A stretch of DNA of 34,454 nucleotides, from NCBI RefSeq assembly GCF_008124605.1, contig NZ_VRYN01000009.1, positions 1 to 34,454 of the forward strand, read 5' to 3'. This document shows, one piece after another, positions 2,780 through 20,973 of this stretch. The notes under the pieces were generated by a model. That model made no database searches, was not told the DNA's origin, and was given only the letters and a program-made list of their open reading frames with translations. The DNA comes from Halobacterium salinarum DSM 3754 (GTDB lineage: Archaea > Halobacteriota > Halobacteria > Halobacteriales > Halobacteriaceae). Position numbers and translations under genes: made by a program. Numbering within the stretch: position 1 is the first letter of the stretch; the number at the start of each line of letters is the position of its first letter.

Positions 2780-3031
2780 ATGGACCTCCCACAGCGAGCG
2801 TCTATATCCCACCAAAACGTCGATGCTGGCCCAATCGCTAAACGCGCCGTCGTAAACAACAGCGAAGTCGTCGCCTGCGCTGGCTGCGACGAGGACCTCG
2901 ATACCAGCAACTACCATCTCCACACCACCATCAGATTCGGCGCTGGCGGTGGCCGAGGCGTCCGCTACAAATCCTTCGTACTCCACGATGCGGAGTGTTT
3001 CAACGCGTGGAAGCGTGATTTAGATGTCTAA
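2780..3031 (+). CDS. Small CxxC protein preceding integrase
   Basis: This is an 83-residue protein with the start placed at ATG 2780; the frame is open further upstream but without family features. It contains CAGC near residue 34 and a later HDAEC motif, a C2HC arrangement typical of a small zinc-binding domain. In between is a Gly-rich stretch (RFGAGGGRGVRYKSF) that could form a beta hairpin. The final codons overlap the integrase start by 8 bp (ATGTCTAA at 3024-3031), so the two genes are almost certainly co-translated. A role in controlling or assisting the recombinase is possible but unproven. Confidence 0.6.
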   Translation: MDLPQRASISHQNVDAGPIAKRAVVNNSEVVACAGCDEDLDTSNYHLHTTIRFGAGGGRGVRYKSFVLHDAECFNAWKRDLDV

Positions 3032-4133
3032 CAACAACGCTACCCCTGGGGTTCGCGACCTCGAAACCCTCCTCGACGACCGCATGGTCAGCCTCGAAAG
3101 CCCACAAACCCAGCAAATCACGAGGGTCGCCGTCAACAACCTGTTCCAGTTCCTCGCCGAAAACAACGACGTCGATGCCGTCGAGGACGTTGACGAACAG
3201 GACGCCCGAGATTGGGTTATCCACCTCGTGAAAGAAGACGAGCTCGCCCCGAACTCTATCCGGACGTATTTCGCGCTCGCCCGCGCCACGTTTGGCTGGT
3301 GGCAACGCAGCGGCGAAATCGACCAGAACCCGCTCGCGACGACCACCGCCGAAGAAGTCCTCCCGTCGAAGAGCAACGACGTCGAGCAACAATTCTGGAA
3401 TGCGGACGCCCGCGAACAGTTGCTCACCTACGTCGACGAACGCGCCCATGCTGCACTTGAGAACGACAGCAACGACGCCGCACGCGCGTTCCGGGACCGC
3501 TCCCTTGTCTACATCCTCGCTGATACCGGCGTCCGCGGAGCGGAGGTCTGTAGCGTCAGTCGCGACGACCGCCGCAACGGCCTCCGATGGGAGGATGTCG
3601 ACCTCGAGGCGGGCGTGATGACTGTCCTCGGGAAGTCCGGCGACCAAGAATCGGTGTCGCTCCCGGGGGTAACCACCGAGAAGCTGGCGCGCTACCGGCG
3701 ACTCATCGACGCCCCCGACGAGTGGCCCGTCATCCCGACCGGAGACGCAGCCTCGAAATACCGGGCCGTTCGCGACGAACTGGCCGACCGTGGATACGAG
3801 GACGCGGAAATCGAGGAGGTCCTGGAAGACTGCGATATCGGCGAGGTGTTGCGCGAGTACGAGGTTGCGCCGCCCGCGTTGACGACAGAGGGCGCAAGAA
3901 CGCTCTTACAGCGGCTTTGCGAGCAGGGAGACGTCGATATTGACGGGGACTATTTGAAGCCCCACGGCGGCCGGCGTGGGCTTGGTGACGAACTCTACGG
4001 CGAGGTCGCCGCCGAAAGCGCACAGGAGGTCCTTCGACACAAGTCCATCGAGACAACCCACGCCTCCTATCGAGATCGGCACCCAGAGGACTTAGCAGCA
4101 GATATCGAGAAGGTCCGTTACAAGAGCGAGTAA
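3024..4133 (+). CDS. Tyrosine recombinase (XerC/D-like integrase)
   Basis: This 369-residue protein has a SAM-like N-terminal core-binding domain (about residues 25-100) and a C-terminal catalytic domain. Catalytic residues of the family are visible: Arg171 in DTGVRGAEV, His314 and Arg317 in HGGRRG, His339 in LRHKSIETT, and the nucleophile Tyr349 in ASYRDR. It is full-length and looks active. An unusual acidic insertion (about residues 245-290) precedes the HxxR box. It is co-translated with the upstream CxxC protein. In haloarchaea such enzymes serve plasmids and proviruses for dimer resolution or integration. No flanking att repeats were found, so its substrate is unknown. It is not closely similar to the recombinase at 18361-19374. 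Confidence 0.85.
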   Translation: MSNNNATPGVRDLETLLDDRMVSLESPQTQQITRVAVNNLFQFLAENNDVDAVEDVDEQDARDWVIHLVKEDELAPNSIRTYFALARATFGWWQRSGEIDQNPLATTTAEEVLPSKSNDVEQQFWNADAREQLLTYVDERAHAALENDSNDAARAFRDRSLVYILADTGVRGAEVCSVSRDDRRNGLRWEDVDLEAGVMTVLGKSGDQESVSLPGVTTEKLARYRRLIDAPDEWPVIPTGDAASKYRAVRDELADRGYEDAEIEEVLEDCDIGEVLREYEVAPPALTTEGARTLLQRLCEQGDVDIDGDYLKPHGGRRGLGDELYGEVAAESAQEVLRHKSIETTHASYRDRHPEDLAADIEKVRYKSE

Positions 4134-4152
4134 GTTGGGTTGAGGGAGTGGT

Positions 4153-4446
4153 CTAATCTCGAAGGCCCCACGGGAGTTCGCCGCCGTTCTCCTTGATGAA
4201 CGCCTTTGCGTCCTCCATGTCCGTGAGGCGGACTGCGTTTCGTTGTCCTCCGTACTTTTCAACGGGGGCTTCGGGGTCGGTAGCCATCTCTTCGAGGAGT
4301 TGTTTGACTCGGCCCTCGTTGTGGCTGGCGAACCCCCAGTTGCTCGCGATATGCTCGATTGTGCGATTGTGCGCGCCTGTAGCCCGGTTTGACGCCATCT
4401 TGTAGACGATTTTCACTTCGAGGTCAGACACTCCCTCGCCACTCAT
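4153..4446 (-). CDS. Hypothetical winged-helix-like protein
   Basis: This is a 97-residue protein with the start placed at ATG 4444-4446; the frame extends upstream to 4500 but that part is less protein-like. Residues 20-60 (RTIEHIASNWGFASHNEGRVKQLLEEM) fit a helix-turn-helix, followed by a region that could be a wing (VEKYGGQRNAVRLTD) and a final helix. I do not recognise a named family. It converges on the integrase gene, with 19 bp between the stops. It may be a plasmid regulator; the DNA-binding role is inferred from predicted secondary structure only. Confidence 0.5.
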   Translation of the reverse strand: MSGEGVSDLEVKIVYKMASNRATGAHNRTIEHIASNWGFASHNEGRVKQLLEEMATDPEAPVEKYGGQRNAVRLTDMEDAKAFIKENGGELPWGLRD

Positions 4447-4752
4447 TAGGTAGCCTTTATCACCCCCAACAAAAAGAGTGTCGTCCAAAACTACACACAA
4501 GAGAATTTGAATGACTCTATCAGAGTCTGATAACTAGTTAACTTAGTTGCTAACCAACACAGTTATAAGATTCTACCTAGTACTAACGAGTATGCCACCC
4601 GGCACACCCCCGGAACAACACTGGACACGACCGCCTAGCTGACGAAACGCAGCTTGGTGGGAGAATCGCGGTTAGACTGACTGGTAGGCTCTGCGACGAC
4701 TGGTCTGCCCCGTCTCGACCCGGGTAGGGGAAAATCGTGACGGGGATACAAA
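4447..4752. other. Divergent regulatory interval with inverted repeats
   Basis: The genes at 4153-4446 and 4753-5076 diverge from this interval. It contains a perfect GACTCT-ATC-AGAGTC dyad (4513-4527), followed by AACTAGTT and overlapping GTTAACT words, all in an AT-rich block up to about 4585. These could be operators for either winged-helix-like product. The remaining GC-rich part holds no convincing gene. Confidence 0.45.
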
Positions 4753-5076
4753 ATGGAACTCGAAACAAAAAACGAAACCTACGCTGAAGGACACGCACTA
4801 ACAAAGCTCTTCGGAGAATCGGCGAAAACGAAAATCATCGCAGCACTGCTCAGCGAGAGCGACGTCGACGTGAATGTCACCGATATCGCTGACCTTGCTG
4901 GGCTGCACCGCACGACCGTCTACGACCACATCGACGACCTCGAAGACCTCGGCGTCGTCGAACAGACCCGAACGGTCAGCGGCAGCCCCATGTACCAAAT
5001 CAATCGCGACAGCGACGTCGCAGAAGATATCGCCCAGCTCCACTGGGACCTCCTCGACGTCGTCGACGAGGAGTGA
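4753..5076 (+). CDS. Winged helix-turn-helix transcriptional regulator
   Basis: This is a 107-residue protein starting at ATG 4753. Residues 15-85 match a winged helix: FGESAKTKIIAALL, then VTDIADLAGLHRTTVYDHID as helix-turn-helix with recognition helix, then LEDLGVVEQTRTVSGSPMY as the wing. The C-terminus is acidic (LLDVVDEE). Short proteins of this layout are common on haloarchaeal plasmids and near insertion sequences. The AT-rich dyads upstream are plausible autoregulatory sites. The regulated genes are unknown. An ISH8-like element lies 190 bp downstream. Confidence 0.75.
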   Translation: MELETKNETYAEGHALTKLFGESAKTKIIAALLSESDVDVNVTDIADLAGLHRTTVYDHIDDLEDLGVVEQTRTVSGSPMYQINRDSDVAEDIAQLHWDLLDVVDEE

Positions 5077-5268
5077 CTCATAGACGTTTCCGCGGTTTTT
5101 GAGGGAATAATGTGGAAACGCCGGCTGCAGGACATTTGAGGGTTAGAAAACGGGCTCCGCAATCCATGGTTCTCTCTGCACCAGAGCTAAACCCTTGATG
5201 AACAAACCAGTCTCGTATCCGATGGAACCTGAAGACCAAGCGAACTTCCCCCGGTTTAGGGGCTCGGC

Positions 5269-6665
5269 CATCCGTCTTTAGTTAGGAGACGAACCGCGTG
5301 ACAGTGGCGGCTTATCGAGGCTACGAAGGAATGAGGAGGTGTCGAGTGTGCACAACGAAACCTCCTCATCACGGATTATGCGTCGGCTCACTACACTGTT
5401 TCCCTCCGAGTTCCTCGAAGAGCACGCCGAGGAACTCGGCGTGGTCGAACGCGACCGCAAGCTCCAGATTCCCGTCTTCGTCTGGGCATTCGTGTTCGGC
5501 TTCGCCGCAGGCGAACGCCGAACACTCGCAGGGTTTCGACGCAGCTACAACTCCACAGCTGACGAGCCGATCTCACCGGGTGGGTTCTATCAGCGGTTGA
5601 CGCCGACGCTCGCGGAGTACTTCCGCGACCTCGTCGAGCACGGTCTCGACGAGGTCGCTGTTCCCGACACTGTTGACGTTGACATCGACCGATTCAGTGA
5701 TGTAATGATCGCTGATGGAACGGTGTTGCGGTTACACGAGTTTCTCGCTGATCAGTTCGAAGCCCGCCACGAGGAGCAGGCTGGAGCGAAGCTCCACCTG
5801 CTCCACAATGCCACTGAACAGACGATTGAACGGATCGACGTTACCGACGAGAAAGCACACGACAGCACGCTGTTCAAGACAGGGTCGTGGCTTGAGAACC
5901 GCCTCGTATTGTTCGACCTCGCGTACTTCAAGTACCGACGGTTTGCGCGGATCGACGAGAACGGCGGCTCCTTCGTGAGCCGGCTGAAACAGAACGCGAA
6001 TCCGGTGATTACGGATGAATTACGGGAATGGCGCGGCCGCGCCATTCCCTTGGAGGGCAAGCAACTCCGTGATGTGCTCGACGATCTCGACCGGACGTAC
6101 ATCGATGTGGAAGTCGAAGTCGAGTTCAAGCGCGGGCCGTACAACGGGACGCGGTCGCTGGATACGAAGCGGTTCCGCGTCGTCGGCGTCCGCGACGAGG
6201 ACGCCGACGACTACCATCTATACGTGACAAATCTGTCGCGAGAGGAGTTCTTTCCGGCGGATTTAGCGCAGATCTACCGGTGTCGGTGGGAAGTGGAGTT
6301 GCTGTTCCGTGAGTTGAAGACGCAGTACGACCTGGACGAGTTCGACACGAGCAACGAGCACGTGGTGAAGATCTTGCTGTACGCAGCGTTGCTGTCACTG
6401 CTTGTGAGCCGTGATCTGTTGGATCTGGTCACCGAGCAGGCGGATGATGAGCTCGTGTTTCCACCGGAACGCTGGGCGGCGACCTTCCGGTCGCACGCCC
6501 AGCTCATCCTCCACGAACTCGGTGAGCACCTCGGTTATTCGCCACCGCCGCTGTTGGAGCGGCTGATCGAGGACGCACAGAAGATCCACAAGCAACGACC
6601 GATCTTACAAGAGACGCTCGCTACCGCTACACAACCGAGGTGTGAGTCTTAACTAAAGACGAATG
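5269..6665 (+). mobile_element. ISH8-like insertion sequence (IS4 family), complete
   Basis: The terminal inverted repeats are CATCCGTCTTTAGTTA at 5269-5284 and, on the opposite strand, CATTCGTCTTTAGTTA ending at 6665, with one mismatch. Length is about 1397 bp, close to ISH8, and a full transposase lies within. The flanking 10 bases, GGGGCTCGGC on the left and GGGGCGAGGA on the right, share only the first five bases. The 10-bp target duplication expected for ISH8 is therefore not intact. This suggests recombination or deletion at one side after insertion. Confidence 0.85.
5339..6652 (+). CDS. ISH8-like IS4-family transposase
   Basis: This 437-residue DDE transposase starts at GTG 5339; an internal Met at residue 14 (MRRLTTLFPSEF) is the alternative start and matches the usual ISH8 N-terminus. 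The catalytic triad is visible: Asp126 in MIADGTVLRLH, Asp193 in LFDLAYFKYRRF, and Glu in YRCRWEVELLFRELK, which is the Y-R-E-K signature of IS4. The frame is uninterrupted, so the enzyme may be functional. The gene fills its insertion sequence. Confidence 0.9.
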   Translation: MSSVHNETSSSRIMRRLTTLFPSEFLEEHAEELGVVERDRKLQIPVFVWAFVFGFAAGERRTLAGFRRSYNSTADEPISPGGFYQRLTPTLAEYFRDLVEHGLDEVAVPDTVDVDIDRFSDVMIADGTVLRLHEFLADQFEARHEEQAGAKLHLLHNATEQTIERIDVTDEKAHDSTLFKTGSWLENRLVLFDLAYFKYRRFARIDENGGSFVSRLKQNANPVITDELREWRGRAIPLEGKQLRDVLDDLDRTYIDVEVEVEFKRGPYNGTRSLDTKRFRVVGVRDEDADDYHLYVTNLSREEFFPADLAQIYRCRWEVELLFRELKTQYDLDEFDTSNEHVVKILLYAALLSLLVSRDLLDLVTEQADDELVFPPERWAATFRSHAQLILHELGEHLGYSPPPLLERLIEDAQKIHKQRPILQETLATATQPRCES

Positions 6666-7357
6666 GGGGCGAGGATAACGATCACCACTTAGATTCAGCC
6701 AAGTGCAAGAAACGAGACATCTGGTTCTATATCGATGATCTAGGACATTATCAGCCACCTCTTCCAATCCCTCTATTCTTCTGGCGACAGAGTCGGATCG
6801 TGTGGAACGAATCTGAAGGTATAACAGACCGCCAATTCCACAATATCAACCCACACGACTATGTTGACGATAGGCTATTGTGCGGGATCCTGAACTCACG
6901 AGTAGTTTGGTTAACCCGTGAAATAGAAGGTAGGCATGCAGGAGGTCAGGGAATGACTCGGCTTCAGATGGTGAAGTATGAAGCCGCTCAGATACCAATA
7001 CCCGACCCAAAGCAGCTCTCTAAAGAGGAAAAACAGCGTATTTTAGATGCGCTTCAAGACCTAATGGACCGGGAAGAAGAATTAGTAGAGGAGGGGGTGG
7101 TAGAGCCTGAAGAACAGCTAGAAAAGAAGGAGGACGAACTCGATGCTCTAGACCGAGCTGTGTTGTCAACGATTGGTATGGAAGACAGATTGGACGAACT
7201 CAAGAAAAGCGTTGAGGCATTAGTAGACCTGCGAAGAGAGGGAGCCGGTGAACAGACAGAGGTTCTTGTCAACCGGACCGAAGAGGAGCAGGTTATTGAA
7301 TTAGAAGGTGTTTCTGAAGCAAGGGAGAGTACACGCTTAACCGACTTCTCTTCATAG
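6666..7357 (+). pseudogene. DNA methylase / restriction-modification protein, C-terminal fragment
   Basis: The frame is open from the ISH8 edge to TAG/TAA at 7357, giving about 230 residues without a proper start; an internal GTG at 6800 is the first plausible one. The sequence RRDIWFYI-like start, FHNINP, then LCGILNSRVVWLTREI, GGQGMTRLQMVKYEAAQIPIPDP and a long acidic coiled coil match the target-recognition and C-terminal region of N6-adenine methylases of the type IIG/BREX kind. The SAM-binding and NPPY motifs are absent. The upstream flank of ISH8 does not continue this gene, so the 5' part was lost. AT content is higher than in the chromosome-like genes, suggesting transfer. Confidence 0.55.
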
Positions 7358-7560
7358 ATAATTCGTCGTCACAGGAGATATTAGGTATCTCCACGTGGTT
7401 GCGCGTCATGGCAGGCGATTTCTGGTATGTACACGCGAAACCACGATTTCTGTGAACGAGGTGTCGTGTCGATTCACCCGGAGATACGTTGATATTCCTC
7501 TTCGCTCATCTCGACAAGTCGTAACATCAATTTGGATGGCGGATCAATGACCAGTCAACG

Positions 7561-8444
7561 ATGGATGAGGAGTCCGCTCAAGTCTTCCTACCATCACGTG
7601 AGCGATGTTTTGAACGTCTCCGTCTCGCCCGCTTCGGCGAGACGGTGACGTGTGTCCATTGCGAGAGCGACAACGTTGTGAAGCGAGGGACGACCGGTAA
7701 AGACGCCCAACAGCACTGGTGCAAGGAGTGTGAGACGTATTTCAACGACCTCACGAACACGATTTTCGGTCAGCATCGCTTCGAACTCGAAGAGATGTTC
7801 TACATCATCAAGGAGATGCGATCTGAGCCGACCGCTCAGATCGCTCGTGACCTTGGCCGAGACTACGAAGCTGTTCTCAACTTTGTCCACAAAGTCCAAG
7901 ACGTGAGTGGGGAGATCGATGAATTTGAACTGTACGAGGTCTGTGAAGCTGACGAAGTCTACGTGACAGCCGGCGAGAAGGGGATCGAAGACGAAGATGA
8001 GAGTCCGCGCGAGCGCGGACTCAAAAAAAGGGACGAGGACGATTCGAATCAGACAAACCGCCAGTGCTGACACTCGTCCGTCGCTCCGACGGACGAGTTC
8101 GGTTTCTCGTCTGCAAGAATCTCCAAGGTACCGACGAAGACATCGCTGAGTATGGCGACGGCAGCGTCATCCTCTGTACTGACGATTACTCGATTTACGA
8201 TGGGATCGAGAACAAGGAGGGGGTGGACGGCCATCTGGCCGTCACCCACTCCGACACCTATGTCATCGGCGATGCCCACACAAACACCTGCGAGAACCGC
8301 CACAGTTTCCTTCGCCAGTGGCTGGCGAAGTTCAGGGGTGTCTCGAAGCATCATCTTCAGAAGTATCTCAACTTCCTTGCACTGAAGCTCAACTCACCCG
8401 AAGATTGGTTCGAGAAACTCCTATGTTACAATGTATCGGGATGA
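7561..8444 (+). CDS. IS1595-family transposase, two frames joined by -1 shift at A7
   Basis: Frame one (7561-8070) carries a zinc ribbon (CVHCESDN and CKECETYF) and the start of the DDE domain (EADEVYVTAGEKG). Frame two (to 8444) carries LTLVRRSDGRVRFLV, the second Asp (LCTDDYSIYDG), and the third catalytic region HTNTCENRHSFLRQWL with KYLNFLALKL. The frames join after GLKKK at a run of seven A (8023-8029). A -1 shift, or one extra A in the RNA, gives GLKKKGRGRFESDKPPVLTL and an unbroken protein of about 294 residues. A 9-bp hairpin directly abuts the A run. It may be a programmed slippage product or a frameshift mutant. Confidence 0.75.
8001..8029 (+). promoter_or_regulatory. Stem-loop plus A7 slippage cassette
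   Basis: GAGTCCGCG (8001-8009) and CGCGGACTC (8014-8022) form a perfect 9-bp stem with loop CGAG, immediately followed by AAAAAAA (8023-8029) and GGG. In RNA this is a hairpin directly 5' of a slippery A run, exactly where the transposase changes frame. The architecture is that known for stem-loop-assisted transcriptional slippage in some insertion sequences. Confidence 0.55.
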
Positions 8445-10008: not shown

Positions 10009-12107
10009 AGTTCGTCAGGGTCGATGGTGAGTTGCACGTCGAGCGCCGTTGCGCTGTCACCGGTTGCCAGCAGCGGGTTGACGTCCAGTTCGAGGATCGC
10101 GGGGAAGTCGGTGACGAGCTGGCTGAGCCGCTGGATGGCCTCCGTGATGGCGGCCTCGTCGGCGGGGTCGCGGCCGCGGGCACCGCGCAGCAGCGGCGCG
10201 GAGTCGAGGTCGTCGATCATGTCACCGGCTTCGCGCTCGGAGACGGGGGCGACGCGGACGCTGGTGTCTTCGAGGATCTCCACGAAGATCCCGCCCAGCC
10301 CGAACAACAGCAGCGGCCCGAACTGTGGGTCGCGATTCATCCCGAGGATGGTTTCGGTGCCGGCGTCGACGTCGACCATCTCCTGGACTTGGATGCCGAG
10401 GATGGTTGCGTCGGGCTGGTAGTTGGTGGCTCGCGTGATGAGGTCCTCGTAGGCGTCCGCGACGGCGTCGGTTTCGACGCCGACTTTCACGCCGCCGATG
10501 TCGGATTTGTGGAGGATGTCCGGGCTGACGATCTTCATCACGACGTCCCCCTCGATGTCGCGGGCGACGCGGCGCGCGGCGTCCGGGCTGTCGACGACGT
10601 CGCCGGTCGGTGTCGGGATGCCGTAGGCGTCGAGCAGGTCCATGGCTTCGACGCCGAGCCGGGTTGCGCCGCGGTCGGCGGCGTCTTCGAGGATGTCGCG
10701 GGCGGCGTCGCGGTCCACGTCGAAGGCCGTGGGGGCCTGGTAGTCCCGGGATTCGACCTCGCGTTGGACCGCGAGCGCGTCCAGGCTGCCGATCGCCCGG
10801 GCGGGGTCGAAGTAGTTGGGGATGCCGGCGTCCCCGAGTACGTCGGTCGCTTGCTCGGTGCGTTCACCACCCATCAGACACGTGACCACTGGCTTGTTAT
10901 GTTTTTCCTGCAGCGCGGTGATGACGCCGCTCAGTTCGGTGTAGTCGATGACCGCGGTCGGTGCCGAGAGGACGAGCGCACAGCCGACGTGCTCGTCGGC
11001 GAGCACGGTGTCGATGGCCGTGCGGAAGCGGTCGATTTCGGCGTCCCCGATGACGTCGACGGGGTTGTAGACGTTCGCTTCGTCGGGCATCGACCCCTGG
11101 AGGGCGTCGATGGTGTCGTCCTCGAAGGACGCCATCGACAGCCGGGAGTCACCGACGGCGTCGGTCGCCATGACGCCGGGACCGCCGGCGTTCGTGATGA
11201 CGGCGACGTCCTCGGAGTCGGGCATCGGGAGGCCGTCGAGTGCGCGCGCGAAGTCGAACAGCTCCTGGACGTTTTCCGCGCGGACGACGCCGGCCTGCTT
11301 GAACCCGGCTTCGTAGGCGGCCTCGCTGCCGGCGATGGTGCCGGTGTGCGAGGAGGCGGCCTGTGCGCCGGCTTCCGTGCGGCCGGATTTGACGACGACC
11401 GCTGGCGTGTCCTGCGTGACTTCACGCGCGTCGTCAATGAACTCGCGGCCGTCGTCGACGCCTTCGAGGTAGCCCAGGATGACGTTCGTGTCGGGGTCGT
11501 CGGCCCACGCCTGCATGAAGTCCGTCTCGCTGAGCACGGCTTTGTTGCCGAGGCTGGCGATGTCTTTGAAGCCGATGCCCTGGTCGTTGGCCCAGTCGAG
11601 GACGGCGGTGATGAACGCGCCGGATTGGCTCATGAACGAGAGGTTCCCGGGGAGGGCGTTCGACGGGCCGAACGTGGCGTTGAGCCCGGTCGGCGTCGAC
11701 AGCAGCCCGAGGCTGTTGGGGCCGACGAGGTTGATGTCGTAGTCGTCGGCGACGGCCACGAGGTCGCGCTCGCGGTCCGCGCCGTCGCCGCCGGTTTCGC
11801 TGAACCCGGCGGTGATCACGACGACGTTCTCGACGCCCGCCTGGCCGGCGTCGCGGACGGCGTCGACGACGATCTGTGGCGGCACGACGACGACAGCGAG
11901 GTCGACCGGCGGTGCGTCGCCGAGGTCGGGGTAGCATGGGTACCCGAGCACGTCGTCGCGGCCGGGGTTGACTGCGATGACGTCGTTGTCGAAATCACTG
12001 AGGTTGTCGATGATGGCGCGACCGATCGCCCCGTCGCGGTCAGTCGCACCGACGACGGCGACTCGATCCGGGGTGAACAGTCCACCTGCGTCTTCTTGGG
12101 TCGTCAC
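10005..12107 (-). CDS. acd: ADP-forming acetate/acyl-CoA synthetase (fused alpha-beta)
   Basis: This 700-residue enzyme converts acyl-CoA, ADP and phosphate to acid, CoA and ATP, the archaeal route of acetate formation. The order is CoA-binding domain (VAVVGATDRDGAIGRAI near residue 16), ligase-CoA domain (FMSQSGAFITAVLDWA near 159), active-site phosphohistidine His254 in SSHTGTIAG, then an ATP-grasp domain (VVMKIVSPDILHKSDIGGVKV). Alpha and beta parts are fused, as in haloarchaeal Acd. A TATA-like TTTAAG on the minus strand about 25 bp upstream of the ATG suggests a leaderless mRNA. The BioD-DRTGG gene follows with a 4-bp overlap. Acetyl-CoA is the likely substrate, but broader acyl use is possible. 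Confidence 0.9.
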   Translation of the reverse strand: MTTQEDAGGLFTPDRVAVVGATDRDGAIGRAIIDNLSDFDNDVIAVNPGRDDVLGYPCYPDLGDAPPVDLAVVVVPPQIVVDAVRDAGQAGVENVVVITAGFSETGGDGADRERDLVAVADDYDINLVGPNSLGLLSTPTGLNATFGPSNALPGNLSFMSQSGAFITAVLDWANDQGIGFKDIASLGNKAVLSETDFMQAWADDPDTNVILGYLEGVDDGREFIDDAREVTQDTPAVVVKSGRTEAGAQAASSHTGTIAGSEAAYEAGFKQAGVVRAENVQELFDFARALDGLPMPDSEDVAVITNAGGPGVMATDAVGDSRLSMASFEDDTIDALQGSMPDEANVYNPVDVIGDAEIDRFRTAIDTVLADEHVGCALVLSAPTAVIDYTELSGVITALQEKHNKPVVTCLMGGERTEQATDVLGDAGIPNYFDPARAIGSLDALAVQREVESRDYQAPTAFDVDRDAARDILEDAADRGATRLGVEAMDLLDAYGIPTPTGDVVDSPDAARRVARDIEGDVVMKIVSPDILHKSDIGGVKVGVETDAVADAYEDLITRATNYQPDATILGIQVQEMVDVDAGTETILGMNRDPQFGPLLLFGLGGIFVEILEDTSVRVAPVSEREAGDMIDDLDSAPLLRGARGRDPADEAAITEAIQRLSQLVTDFPAILELDVNPLLATGDSATALDVQLTIDPDEL

Positions 12108-16628: not shown

Positions 16629-16799
16629 ATGGCAGACAGTTTTTCGCCACTGGAGCTCCGAGACACGACGATCCGCAACCGGTTCGCCATGTCGCCGATG
16701 TGCCAGAACACATCTAATGAGTATATACAGCGTAAACGTGAGTGTGCGACGGGGCCGGTTGGAACATTGACCTACTCCACATACGCACAGAATAAGTAA
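16629..16799 (+). pseudogene. Old Yellow Enzyme, N-terminal fragment (split by integrative element)
   Basis: ATG 16629 begins the FMN-oxidoreductase N-terminus (SFSPLELRDTTIRNRFAMSP, then MCQ), matching YqjM/XenA-type enzymes up to codon 26. The frame then enters the integrative element and adds 30 unrelated residues before TAA 16797-16799. The rest of the enzyme continues at 19951. The interruption falls after the TGTGCCAG core. A TATA-like CTAAAC about 30 bp upstream drives it. Without the rest of the barrel this fragment has no activity. Confidence 0.85.
16699..16737 (+). other. attL: core TGTGCCAG plus inverted arm ACAGCGTAAAC
   Basis: The 8-bp core 16699-16706 is repeated at 19943-19950. 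Twenty bases inside the element, ACAGCGTAAAC (16727-16737) is the exact inverse complement of GTTTACGCTGT (19913-19923) at the other end. In the excised circle the two arms would flank the core symmetrically. This defines the left end of the element. Confidence 0.8.
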
Positions 16800-17144
16800 G
16801 TCGGTGCGTGAAATTTTCAGTTTAGAGCTTAGATTTACCCACAATTCACAATGAAGGGCGTCAGAATTGTCTCTGTGCCGTTTATTTTCTTTCTGAGGGG
16901 GTAACATCGTCTTGGTACTGAAATCGATTCTAAGCCACTTCACGGCGTTCTGAGAGAAAACGGGTTTGTCGCCTAATCCGCCGATTTTTCAGACTGTTGA
17001 GAAATAGTGAAACCGGGAGTATGGAAACTGCCTTAGAAACGGTTAGAATACTTCTAAAGAGTTTAGAGGCATAGAGGGAGAGAGAAACAACCGCCGACTC
17101 CATGCACCGAAACTCGCCGAACCCGGCTGTGTGTTTAACCCGAT

Positions 17145-17170
17145 GTGAACCTCTGCGTTGCTGTGTTCAC
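17145..17170. repeat. Hairpin 1: GTGAAC stem, 14-nt loop with TGCGTTGC
   Basis: GTGAAC (17145-17150) pairs with GTTCAC (17165-17170) around the 14-base loop CTCTGCGTTGCTGT. The octamer TGCGTTGC recurs in the loop of the hairpin at 17191, which also has a 14-base loop. Confidence 0.55.
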
Positions 17171-17190
17171 CACTACGGTCATTATACTGT

Positions 17191-17218
17191 GTTGGTCTGT
17201 GCGTTGCGTAGGACCAAC
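17191..17218. repeat. Hairpin 2: GTTGGTC stem, 14-nt loop with TGCGTTGC
   Basis: GTTGGTC (17191-17197) pairs with GACCAAC (17212-17218) around the 14-base loop TGTGCGTTGCGTAG. The stem differs from hairpin 1 while the loop octamer TGCGTTGC is the same, as expected when a loop is recognised and a stem is only structural. Confidence 0.55.
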
Positions 17219-17232
17219 TACTCGAAAAGAGT

Positions 17233-17328
17233 GAGAGGAAAGGAAAGGGACTACAGGGATAGGATAGGAGAGTAGAGTTTGACAGCGCGCGTCTTTGAGA
17301 CGAGAGGAAAGGAAAGGGACTACAGGGA
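17233..17328. repeat. Two 27-bp purine-rich direct repeats, 42 bp apart
   Basis: Positions 17233-17259 and 17302-17328 are identical over 27 bases, beginning GAGAGGAAAGGAAAGGG and ending CTACAGGGA. Each copy is followed within about 30 bp by a TTGACAG word. Only two copies exist and no cas genes are present, so this is not a CRISPR. Iteron or transfer-site function is possible. Confidence 0.7.
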
Positions 17329-17379
17329 GAGGGAAGGGAGAGAGAAAACAGGGTTGACAGTCAGATTGCGAATTGACGC

Positions 17380-17700
17380 TTATTTGCGGTCTTCTACTGA
17401 TTTTGATGCATCAGATTCACTTCTGGTGGAACCTACAGACTGCCCGTCATGGTGAATCGGTATGTTTGGCGGAGTATCATAGCCAGACGTAACGCTACGG
17501 TGGCCGAGAAGTTCCGCCTTGTAGTGGTCATAATTTTCTTCTTCGATAGTGAATGAAATCCTATCTCCGATTTCAATCTCGCGATTATCGCGGTCCATTA
17601 CGACTGTTCTTTTCGCACCCATACCCGGTTTGATAATTGGATTTCCCGCATTGCTAAAATCATCAACAGAACCCTCATACCGTTTGCCCATCTCTGGCAT
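17380..17700 (-). CDS. TRAM-like/OB-fold small protein of the element
   Basis: This is a 106-residue protein with ATG at 17698-17700; Met4 (MGKRYEG) is an alternative. The first 65 residues, GKRYEGSVDDFSNAGNPIIK, then REIEIGDRISFTIEEENYDHYKAELL, follow the pattern of the TRAM domain, a small beta-barrel that binds RNA or DNA and is common in haloarchaeal single-domain proteins. The tail (about residues 70-106) is polar and probably disordered. It is the last gene in the minus-strand series. A nucleic-acid chaperone or regulator role is inferred. Codon use is more AT-rich than the host genes. Confidence 0.55.
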   Translation of the reverse strand: MPEMGKRYEGSVDDFSNAGNPIIKPGMGAKRTVVMDRDNREIEIGDRISFTIEEENYDHYKAELLGHRSVTSGYDTPPNIPIHHDGQSVGSTRSESDASKSVEDRK

Positions 17701-17927
17701 GAATCATCATACTCAGAGACGGTGTAAATAGTTTTGTGGGCGATATGTTGCTGTGTGGTGGCGAAAGCCCGGACGGGCAGTGCGTAGAGTCCCGGAACGT
17801 GGAGGTGGGTGGGGAAGGTCGATGTGTGATAGCTTCTGAGGTGTATGAGACAGACTGTTTGCATCTGTGGAAACTCTTTCACTGTCCATGACCCAACCAT
17901 CCTCTCAAAATCCATCCTCACAAGACG

Positions 17928-18206
17928 TTACTGAGTGGCGTCTGTGGTACGCTCGAAGACAGCCATAGCAGAGTCTTCTAATTCCTTAGTGGTATTAGCG
18001 AGTGATATATTTCCGTTATCTTCGGCTTTCAGACGTAGCTCTTTGAGGTTCTGTGCCAAGACTAACGAACTACTGCGGTATTCGTCAAGTTCCCTGTGCG
18101 CTTCCTGTAGGTCGGTAGCTATCTCCCGAAGGGTCATATCGGTATCTGCGTAGGAGAGTGATTCTGTGGCGACGGCGTCGGGTATTCCGATTGTGCTTTC
18201 AGACAC
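17928..18206 (-). CDS. Small coiled-coil protein of the element
   Basis: This is a 92-residue protein beginning at GTG 18204-18206; the first ATG is about 23 codons further in. From residue 25 on it is almost wholly helical with heptad-like spacing (LREIATDLQEAHRELDEYRS, LVLAQNLKELRLKAEDN). I recognise no family. It stands between the recombinase and the TRAM-like gene, separated from each by 150-230 bp of non-coding sequence, so it may have its own promoter. Recombination directionality factors are often small helical proteins beside an integrase, but there is no specific sign of this here. Confidence 0.5.
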   Translation of the reverse strand: MSESTIGIPDAVATESLSYADTDMTLREIATDLQEAHRELDEYRSSSLVLAQNLKELRLKAEDNGNISLANTTKELEDSAMAVFERTTDATQ

Positions 18207-18269
18207 AGAGAATCTTTTAGCGGGCTTCTACTTAGTTCTAAGGTCTTAAAGTATCGACATTAAGTCTTT

Positions 18270-18297
18270 GGCGGCACTTGCGGTGCGTAATGCCGCC
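18270..18297. repeat. Hairpin 3: GGCGGCA stem, 14-nt loop with TGCGGTGC
   Basis: GGCGGCA (18270-18276) pairs perfectly with TGCCGCC (18291-18297) around the 14-base loop CTTGCGGTGCGTAA. The loop has the same length as hairpins 1 and 2 and carries TGCGGTGC, one base different from their TGCGTTGC. It lies between the recombinase stop and the coiled-coil gene start, so it may also act as a terminator. Confidence 0.55.
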
Positions 18298-18360
18298 CGT
18301 CCCAAGAAGTACGTGGAAGGGGTATCTCGTGGTGTTTACCCCCGGAGTGAGGGAAGGGAA

Positions 18361-19374
18361 CTACTCAGAACCGGGGCCGTATCTCCGGGCGGCTTCCCGA
18401 AGGTCATTATTGGCGAATTGAAGATACCGTTCTGTGGTTTCAATCTTCGAGTGGCCCATTAGTTTCTGTAATCGGCGGGTATCCATTCCATTTTTGATAC
18501 TTTGGACGGCGAAACTGTGCCTTAGAACGTGTGCCGTCACTTTTCCCCGGACGTTACCTGCGGCGTCTGTGTGAACAGTAGACTGTAATCCTGCCCGTTC
18601 TGCGGCTTCTTTGACGAGTCGGGTGATACGGTTAGGGTCAATCTGTTCTGAGTGAGTGGTCGGAAAGAGGTAATCGCTTCCAGCTGTTGCCAGAGATTTA
18701 CGGTTGACATTGAGCCACCGATTTAGGAGAGTGTCAAGTTCGGACTGGTAGTAGACAGTACGGTTCTGGTGGGTTTTGTTTGCCCGGACTTTGATTGCCC
18801 GTTCGTCTGTGTCAATGTCTTCTAAGCGGGTTTCTGTTAGTTCTGTGCGGCGTAATCCCGTATGGTAGAGTAGCCGGACAATTAGCTCATTACGTAGCCG
18901 GGGGTTTGGTACGTTATCGGCTAAACTGTCTATTTCGTCCGGTTCAAGGTATTGAACGCCCTCCTTCAGATTTTGCTCTTTCTTAGTTCCGTTCTTTAGC
19001 GCCGTCCATCCTGATAAGTCAAGGTCTTCGGCGGGGTTCTCTGTTTCAGGGATACTCATAGAAGGGTCTTCAGCCATACGAGAGGCTTCCTGATAGAACA
19101 TTGATATAGAAGATTCTCGCATCGAGACTGTTCCGCCAGCATATCCCCCGTTGTTTAGCATTTGTCGGAGGTACGTTCTAACGTCGTGGGTAGTAGCGTC
19201 CCAAAGTGTCTTAGCGCCCCTGTCACGGCTGTTAGGGTCGTAATCTTTAGCTCCGGGATTCTCTAACCACTCTGTCCAGTCTCTTACGTCCTGAGTGTAC
19301 CTGTTAGCGGTTCCCTCCGCTTTTTTTGTAGTCTGACGGTTGTGAAATTCCGAAATAACCGCTTTGCTGTCCAT
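18361..19374 (-). CDS. int: Tyrosine recombinase (integrase of the element)
   Basis: This 337-residue protein has an N-terminal SAM-like DNA-binding domain (about residues 1-110) and a catalytic domain. The active site is intact: Arg175 in YHTGLRRTELT, His282 and Arg285 in HVLRHSFAVQ, His308 in LMGHSKIETT, nucleophile Tyr317 in ERYLQF. It should catalyse integration at and excision from the TGTGCCAG site in the Old Yellow Enzyme gene. Its ATG overlaps the stop of the RHH gene (TAATG), so the two are translationally coupled. It differs from the recombinase at 3024-4133 in length and spacing and belongs to a separate mobile unit. Confidence 0.9.
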   Translation of the reverse strand: MDSKAVISEFHNRQTTKKAEGTANRYTQDVRDWTEWLENPGAKDYDPNSRDRGAKTLWDATTHDVRTYLRQMLNNGGYAGGTVSMRESSISMFYQEASRMAEDPSMSIPETENPAEDLDLSGWTALKNGTKKEQNLKEGVQYLEPDEIDSLADNVPNPRLRNELIVRLLYHTGLRRTELTETRLEDIDTDERAIKVRANKTHQNRTVYYQSELDTLLNRWLNVNRKSLATAGSDYLFPTTHSEQIDPNRITRLVKEAAERAGLQSTVHTDAAGNVRGKVTAHVLRHSFAVQSIKNGMDTRRLQKLMGHSKIETTERYLQFANNDLREAARRYGPGSE

Positions 19375-19880
19375 TATTCAACCCTCCAATAGTACGCGTT
19401 TGAGGAACGAACCTGCCCGGTTCTGTTCGATAACCTTTCGAGAGTTTCGGAAACGTCGCTGGTATCGGCACCGATACGGGCCGCAACTTCCCGAGGTTTT
19501 TGTCCAACACTCTCCGGTTTAGGTTCCTGAGGTCCGGGGGCGTATGTTTCGGGCGCAGTTGGTAATACTTCAAGTAGCACCTGTTCCAGACTAAACAATT
19601 CCTCAGACTCTTTTTCCCGACTGACCGCTTTCACTTCGTCCTGTATGTCTTCGACTGTCCTTTCCAGCCGAGTGAGAGAATCCAGTACCTCACTATCTTC
19701 TACTGTTCCTGTGTCGGCCTGTGCGGTGCGTGGGGCCGCCTCTGTGTCTGTTATCTCCCGTTGGACAGAAAGCCGTATCAAGTGGCTAAGACTGTCGTAC
19801 TCCGGGCCTTCGGCGGCGTCTTCCCATTCCTCTTTGACCGACTCATCAATCCGAAAGGCGACGGTGGTTTTCTCTGCCAT
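19374..19880 (-). CDS. Ribbon-helix-helix protein with C-terminal HTH-like region
   Basis: This is a 168-residue protein starting at ATG 19878-19880. Residues 1-45 (KTTVAFRIDESVKEEWEDAA, then YDSLSHLIRLSVQREI) fit a ribbon-helix-helix DNA-binding domain. The centre (about residues 68-100) is a coiled coil. The C-terminal 55 residues (REVAARIGADTSDVSETLERLSNRTGQVRSS then YYWRVE) look like a winged helix. It is the first gene after attR and is coupled to int, an excellent position for a regulator of excision or of the int operon, perhaps binding the arm repeats 33 bp upstream. Function is inferred from domains and context. Confidence 0.7.
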   Translation of the reverse strand: MAEKTTVAFRIDESVKEEWEDAAEGPEYDSLSHLIRLSVQREITDTEAAPRTAQADTGTVEDSEVLDSLTRLERTVEDIQDEVKAVSREKESEELFSLEQVLLEVLPTAPETYAPGPQEPKPESVGQKPREVAARIGADTSDVSETLERLSNRTGQVRSSNAYYWRVE

Positions 19881-19912
19881 CTACCCGAAACGTCTCACGG
19901 TGGCTCCTTAGT

Positions 19913-19950
19913 GTTTACGCTGTTAATACATAATAGGCGAGTTGTGCCAG
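19913..19950 (+). other. attR: inverted arm GTTTACGCTGT plus core TGTGCCAG
   Basis: GTTTACGCTGT (19913-19923) mirrors the attL arm. Nineteen bases later comes the second core copy (19943-19950), after which the Old Yellow Enzyme frame resumes at TAC TCC TGT. The arm also lies in the likely promoter region of the minus-strand RHH-int operon, whose first ATG is at 19880. Confidence 0.8.
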
Positions 19951-20973
19951 TACTCCTGTGAGGACCGCGACGGCCTCGCGACCGACTGGCACCGCGTCCA
20001 CCTGGGGTCGCGGGCGGTCGGCGGCGCCGGCGTCGTGATGACCGAAGCCACCGCCGTCGAGGAGCGCGGCCGCATCTCCCCCGAGGACCTCGGCATCTGG
20101 AGCGACGAGCACGGCGAGGCGCTGGCACCCGTCGCCGAGTTCATCAGCGACCAGGGCGCGACGCCCGCCATCCAGCTCGCCCACGCCGGCCGAAAGGCCG
20201 GTACCGCGCGCATCTGGGGTGACGACAGCGGCCCCGTCCCGCTCGACGAGGGTGGCTGGGATCCGGTCGCACCGAGCGCCGATCCCTACCCCTACGAGGA
20301 CGACGAGCGCGACACCCGGAAGCTCTCCACGGCGGACATAGAAGACGTCGTGGAGGCGTTCCGCGACGCCGCGCGGCGCGCCAACGAGGCCGGCTTCGAG
20401 GTCGCGGAGATCCACGCCGCCCACGGCTACCTCATCCACCAGTTCCTGTCGCCGGTGTCGAACCACCGCGACGACGAGTACGGCGGCAGCTTCGAGAACC
20501 GCACGCGGCTGGCCCGCGAAGTCACGTCGGCGGTCCGCGAGGAGTGGCCCGACGACAAGCCCGTGTTCGTGCGCATCTCCGCGACCGACTGGATCGACGA
20601 CCGCGACTCCTGGACCGTCGAGGAGTCCGTCCAGCTCGCTGACGACCTGCACGCGCTGGGCGCGGACCTGATCGACGTCTCCACCGCCGGCATCCACCCC
20701 GACCAGGACATCCAGTCCGGCGGGCCCAACTACCAGCTGCAGTTCGCCGAGCGCATCAACGCCGACACCGAGCGCGACGTCGCCGTCGGCACCGTGGGCG
20801 GCATCCAGAGCGCCGAGCAGGCCGACGCCATCGTGCGCAACGACCGCGCCGACCTCGCGATCGTGGGTCGGGAGTTCCTCCGCGATCCGTACTTCCCCCT
20901 GCACGCCGCCCGCGAACTCGGCCGCGAGGACGCCGCCGACGTGCCCCCGCAGTACCGCCGCGGGTTCCAGTGA
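19951..20973 (+). pseudogene. Old Yellow Enzyme, main C-terminal part (split by integrative element)
   Basis: About 340 residues of an FMN-dependent NAD(P)H oxidoreductase barrel follow attR. Motifs include IQLAHAGRKAG (substrate/FMN), HAAHGYLIHQFLSPVSNHR, YGGSFENRTRLAREV and the phosphate-binding AIVGREFLRDPYFPL. Similarity is to YqjM/XenA-type ene-reductases that reduce activated C=C bonds. Joined to 16629-16706 the gene encodes 366 residues. In the present state the only nearby start is TTG 19942, created at attR, which would give a protein lacking the first 23 residues; translation from it is uncertain. The gene is thus off, or weakly expressed in truncated form, unless the element excises. 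Confidence 0.85.

Follow-up and report, generated by a model that had tools for sequence, protein, structure and literature searches.

The stretch analysed here (the window) is positions 1 to 34,454 of contig C9 (NZ_VRYN01000009.1) in the 2.36-Mb genome of Halobacterium salinarum DSM 3754, haloarchaeal chromosomal DNA with a guanine-plus-cytosine (GC) content of 0.66. Within it, a GC-poor block separates two pieces of the gene for a common flavin enzyme, an Old Yellow Enzyme (OYE). The block is framed by two copies of a short attachment (att) core, has one 11-bp arm of an inverted pair near each end, and carries four genes, all on the minus strand, in its right four fifths. The features that define it are listed below.

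16629-16706, plus strand: host OYE gene, 5' piece, codons 1-26
16699-19942, no strand: integrated element, 3244 bp, GC 0.49 (0.66 in the flanking DNA)
16699-16706, no strand: attL core TGTGCCAG, predicted 7-bp crossover GTGCCAG at 16700-16706
16727-16737, plus strand: left arm ACAGCGTAAAC of the symmetric attP
18361-19374, minus strand: tyrosine recombinase (integrase), 337 amino acids, XerA/XerC-like catalytic domain, called by profile match and catalytic residues
19374-19880, minus strand: 168-amino-acid protein, gene upstream of and overlapping the integrase gene; ribbon-helix-helix (RHH)-like N-terminus, coiled coil, winged-helix-like C-terminus
19913-19923, plus strand: right arm GTTTACGCTGT of the symmetric attP
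19943-19950, no strand: attR core TGTGCCAG, predicted 7-bp crossover at 19944-19950
19943-20973, plus strand: host OYE gene, 3' piece, from within codon 24 to the stop, with an in-frame TTG from the element end at 19942

Insertion into the OYE gene

Removal of the element in silico, joining 16698 to 19943, yielded a single open frame of 366 codons, the exact restoration of the host frame that a first-pass annotation of this DNA had proposed. The junction falls on codons 24-26 (M-C-Q), inside a conserved SPM-CQ-YS motif. The larger piece belongs to the OYE family by profile match and is of the NamA/YqjM type, closest to the NADPH dehydrogenase NamA. The gene is uninterrupted in four genomes of the same genus. 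The flanks of the element, once joined, align with these genes through the junction, and upstream synteny is conserved, most clearly in genome G009, where the upstream gene aligned too; the two pieces are thus contiguous in relatives, a check on which the first-pass annotation had made its reading depend. The sequence ATGTGCCAGTA is present at the site in all four intact orthologues, and the site reads ATGTGYCAGTA in nine of nine orthologues inspected. The OYE interruption is a genuine insertion. Across the order, 348 of 392 genomes encode a close OYE homologue (E at most 1e-100), nearly all of the matches listed being full length; the window's genome has only one close copy, the interrupted one.

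With its att direct repeats, the empty sites in relatives and its own intact integrase, the block has the make-up of a minimal integrative mobile element lodged in a protein-coding gene, as first described; no tRNA gene was found anywhere in the window, and an Rfam search of the element region gave no match. The first-pass annotation had set the limits at 16699 and 19950. The start and the exact cores and arms stood, and the end was moved to 19942, since 19950 takes in the second copy of the core. An alternative direct-repeat pair, CGCGACCGA at 12017 and 19977, was rejected as a GC-rich chance match outside the element.

Integrase and insertions at the same codon

The integrase belongs to the tyrosine recombinase superfamily (Phage_integrase domain PF00589, E 4e-35). 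Its frame is open, and alignment to XerA structures showed a complete catalytic set of R175, K200, H282-x-x-R285, H308 and Y317. It scored 161 bits against the XerA equivalog NF040815, below the cut-off of 220, and its gene lies between the att sites of a mobile element, so we do not classify it as XerA. Phage and plasmid collections yielded no relative above 60% identity.

A search for the same recombinase at the same gene, suggested by the first-pass annotation, proved fruitful. Halovenus rubra carries a 2964-bp element at the same OYE codon, with an integrase 98% identical to that of the window and with different neighbouring genes. In genome G150, from another family of the order, a 4788-bp element whose integrase is 65% identical splits OYE at that codon as well. 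Because a single clade (support 98/97) unites the three OYE-targeting integrases, OYE targeting reads as a trait inherited within a lineage of integrases that has passed between three families of the order. Of the changes between the integrases of the window and of Halovenus, 27 are synonymous and 9 non-synonymous; the ratio of non-synonymous to synonymous rates (dN/dS), 0.10, indicates purifying selection since the two copies parted. The Halovenus core is TGTGTCAG at both ends, and both core spellings occur among intact orthologues. The attL and attR spellings match within each of the two hosts, although the overlap is spelled differently between them, a pattern that would fit a requirement for identity over the overlap.

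Organisation of the recombination site

In the predicted circle junction the core takes the central place: GTTTACGCTGT-47 bp-ACAGCGTAAAC. The arms lie 20 bp (ACAGCGTAAAC) and 19 bp (GTTTACGCTGT) from the core, as the first-pass annotation had it, and each occurs once in the window; in a random simulation, exact symmetric 11-bp arms arose in 1 of 20,000 trials. The arms are conserved in homologous elements, which was another point on which the earlier reading could have failed: across the clade, GTTTRCGYTGT and ACARCGYAAAC stand exactly 47 bp apart in seven of seven elements, with one mismatch in one arm of L030. In each of these seven elements the stretch matching the host includes positions 21-27 of the 47. 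These positions mark the exact centre and are the only part that all seven share, which points to a 7-bp crossover, GTGCCAG in the window element. An eighth member, in genome G417 (integrase 57% identical to that of the window), was found after the rule was set, and the arms predicted its ends: it measures 3058 bp arm to arm, a 13-bp run shared by its two ends spans the central positions, and taking it out gives back a 244-amino-acid frame.

The symmetry resides in the element. On either side of the centre, 23 of 31 positions are symmetric in attP and 5 of 20 in the OYE attB. Symmetric arms extend to more distant members such as L046 (18 of 19 bp symmetric), and the clade that targets ABC-2 permeases and its neighbours lack them. 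Three elements, L033, L049 and L110, whose integrases are 84-89% identical, share the same arms and the 47-bp spacing, and split unrelated target genes at unrelated crossovers (GCTGTAC, GTTGTTG and TTCGAGA, respectively). We tentatively suggest that these integrases might read fixed symmetric arms on their own circle and need little beyond host identity over the central 7 bp, which would make retargeting to coding genes easy.

The RHH-like protein and cargo genes

The 168-amino-acid protein adjoins the integrase in nearly all relatives. Its N-terminus shows an RHH-like pattern, VAFRI-DESVKEEWEDAAE..SLSHLIRLSVQREI, and no family scored above the Pfam cut-off. An AlphaFold model gave two low-confidence N-terminal helices, one long helix and a confident winged-helix-like end; a fold search returned weak winged-helix matches only, none at E 0.001 or better. 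We regard it as a putative DNA-binding partner or regulator. Since the right arm sits between the start codon of the 168-amino-acid gene and the core, the integrase operon could plausibly be controlled from the arm.

The remaining features of the element are two cargo genes and a pair of repeats.

17233-17337, plus strand: two purine-rich direct repeats of 36 nt, 69 bp apart, with partial conservation in relatives
17380-17700, minus strand: 106-amino-acid cargo protein (p106), 95% identical in the L033 element
17928-18206, minus strand: 92-amino-acid cargo protein (p92), PHROG 16395 (haloarchaeal tailed viruses)

The repeats lie in the left 670 bp, where no convincing gene was found, and are possible origin or regulatory repeats. 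The model of p106 was too poor to use (mean predicted local distance difference test score 46.7). Where integrases share just 37-57% identity, the p92 and p106 of the elements are 75-95% identical, as seen on comparing the window proteins with those of L033, L037 and L045; this points to module exchange, in which the cargo moves independently of the integrase.

Elsewhere in the window, positions 3024-8444 may be a further mobile region: another gene for a tyrosine recombinase (3024-4133) and one resembling a transposase gene (5339-6652) lie there, together with an apparently frameshifted insertion-sequence transposase (7561-8070 and 8064-8444).

Targets and contents of the element family

Ends were determined for 18 elements plus that of G417 and are best supported where arms were found; direct repeats are the main evidence for those of L034, L037-L040, L042, L043 and L045, and no target is confirmed for L037 or L039. 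Pfam supports the following targets: OYE, T2SSE-type ATPase (two), DUF7266, TspO, HhH-GPD glycosylase, GNAT, ABC-2 permease and flavin amine oxidase. An N6-methylase target is barely above the Pfam cut-off, a YCF48-like beta-propeller match is below it, and further ABC-2 permease genes are split by L040 and L042 on visible homology. Most relatives split protein-coding genes of unrelated function, and insertion into a coding gene reads as a habit of the family, not a peculiarity of the window copy. The window's own genome (G000) has a second, more distant family element, L046 (contig C1, about 278-283 kb; 4839 bp), which splits a GNAT acetyltransferase gene.

Two members appear to soften the damage to their targets. 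L031 (genome G159, contig C11) is inserted at the final codons of a gene for a protein with visible C-terminal similarity to enoyl-CoA hydratase (no Pfam run); as we read its att sequence, it would provide a new stop codon and spare the target protein. L040 (genome G224, contig C1, about 24.4-28.8 kb) carries a full-length recoded copy of its interrupted ABC-2 permease with an altered core, starting 45 bp inside the left end, which by its sequence is a built-in replacement for the broken gene.

A plasmid replication protein (Rep) of the DUF1424 family is encoded by the larger members L041 and L042 and, below threshold, by L043. HNH proteins were found by Pfam in L030 and, below threshold, in L032; the window copy has neither Rep nor HNH protein. 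Small helix-turn-helix-HNH proteins resembling homing endonucleases occur in L030 and L032 (Pfam run) and in L039 (visible similarity).

Discussion

We consider it very probable that the block is a small haloarchaeal integrative element that moves horizontally and inserts site-specifically, and that its integrase, with probable help from the adjacent RHH-like protein, joins attP to the attB in the OYE gene. The element would circularise and insert by tyrosine recombination between a symmetric attP and a short coding attB. The predicted attP is a 69-bp imperfect palindrome in which two 11-bp arms, presumably protein-bound, stand 47 bp from each other on either side of a central 7-bp crossover; attB would be the short coding sequence for SPM-CQ-YS. 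Integration would split OYE at codons 24-26, and the reverse reaction would restore the gene exactly. Reversibility is plausible from the sequence; both OYE halves are still open in all clear cases, which recent insertion and reversible insertion fit equally well.

Several points weigh against this account. The 392 genomes yielded neither a circular form nor an attP: the attP search returned only matches with 2-3 mismatches, in 13 genomes, and a reversed control pattern matched at a similar rate. The strand-exchange positions come from core overlap, not from mapping, and the RHH call rests on a sequence pattern and a low-confidence modelled N-terminus. A single match to the closed-attP pattern in IMG/VR (L096) was discarded as a chance hit in unrelated DNA that does not resemble the element.

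The first-pass annotation also suggested a small satellite lacking replication genes. The lack of any recognisable replication gene held up, and no helper is known. That the element is a satellite of a virus or plasmid, needing a helper for replication and transfer, is possible, if doubtful. It has no recognisable capsid or conjugation gene either, p92 falls in a PHROG of haloarchaeal tailed viruses (the sole cargo gene with a viral PHROG), and three larger relatives have the DUF1424 plasmid Rep. Against this, there is no evidence of a packaging site or helper, and a pattern search of IMG/VR found no relative of the integrase, the RHH-like protein or the cargo. Among all genes of the window, no capsid, terminase or conjugation gene was recognised, which sets the element apart from proviruses and conjugative elements.

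It is unlikely that the block is the fixed, decayed remnant of an integrative plasmid or provirus and OYE now a pseudogene. Small size and the absence of replication genes that some relatives possess would suit such a remnant, but the integrase is intact and under purifying selection, the att sites and arms are all intact, and a near-identical integrase exists in another family.

It is rather improbable that the gene was never lost and that an N-truncated OYE is still made from the in-frame TTG of the element end. TTG-TGC-CAG at attR would open a 343-amino-acid frame, with the same TTG in L008 and L030 and an equivalent one in L033. Such a protein would, however, lack about 23 N-terminal residues which, judging from the fold family, include one strand of the barrel and some of the flavin site; archaeal genes infrequently start with TTG, and an in-frame coincidence is weak evidence.

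Finally, the idea that the host switches on the ene-reductase by programmed excision, in the manner of the comK, skin and nif elements, has bacterial precedent (PMC8987985) and draws on the exact frame restoration, the three independent insertions at one OYE codon in genomes without a second close copy and the undecayed OYE halves, but we judge it very unlikely, because the genes that sister elements split are unrelated, the element spreads horizontally (recently mobile between families, not vertically fixed at the locus) and the window OYE evolves no slower as a protein than intact ones (dN/dS about 0.30-0.37 when compared with intact orthologues and 0.17-0.29 for pairs of intact ones). Of the close OYE homologues of the order, moreover, nearly all of those listed are uninterrupted, no regulator is linked to OYE, and no circle or same-strain empty site was seen; the regulatory role put forward in the first-pass annotation was accordingly dropped in favour of a mobile, site-specific integrative element.

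Archaeal integrases are known mainly from tRNA genes. That some enter coding genes, and that genes split by bacterial elements are restored by excision, is already known. Like the SNJ2-type (betapleolipovirus) and XerA/pNOB8-type integrases, the window integrase is unsplit, combines a SAM-like N-domain with a Phage_integrase domain, is encoded in an operon with small partner genes and uses a short att site (PMC8371274). SNJ2 integrase targets a tRNA gene end with a 13-14-bp att site (PMC8371274), whereas the family described here targets coding genes with a 7-8-bp match and has an RHH-like partner, a difference drawn by description, not by sequence; the HRPV-12 record has no annotated integrase. 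Insertion into coding genes is shared with thaumarchaeal cryptic integrated elements, virus BJ1 and the Msmi-Pro1 proviruses; att sites of such elements can be as short as 8 bp, and one supplies a new stop (PMC6563490, PMC8371274). The thaumarchaeal insertions are 3'-distal and spare the protein, whereas most of the haloarchaeal ones lie within the gene and split it. Active-lysogeny and excision elements (the Listeria comK prophage, sporulation and nitrogen-fixation elements) likewise split a coding gene that excision restores (PMC8987985), but the window element moves between families, with no regulated excision or host benefit seen. With haloarchaeal rolling-circle plasmids the larger members share the DUF1424 Rep, which the window element lacks. 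In a partial literature search we found no paper describing this haloarchaeal family.

A review noted that recombination at archaeal coding-gene sites had never been tested and posed dyad symmetry there as a question (PMC8371274). The family offers a concrete candidate answer: it is the attP of the element that is symmetric, not the host site, and comparison predicts a 7-bp crossover. The family further illustrates how small elements may deal with the cost of breaking a gene: internal splits, stop-codon repair and a built-in spare copy of the target. If retargeting is indeed as easy as tentatively suggested above, insertion would be naturally reprogrammable by a change of 7 bp.

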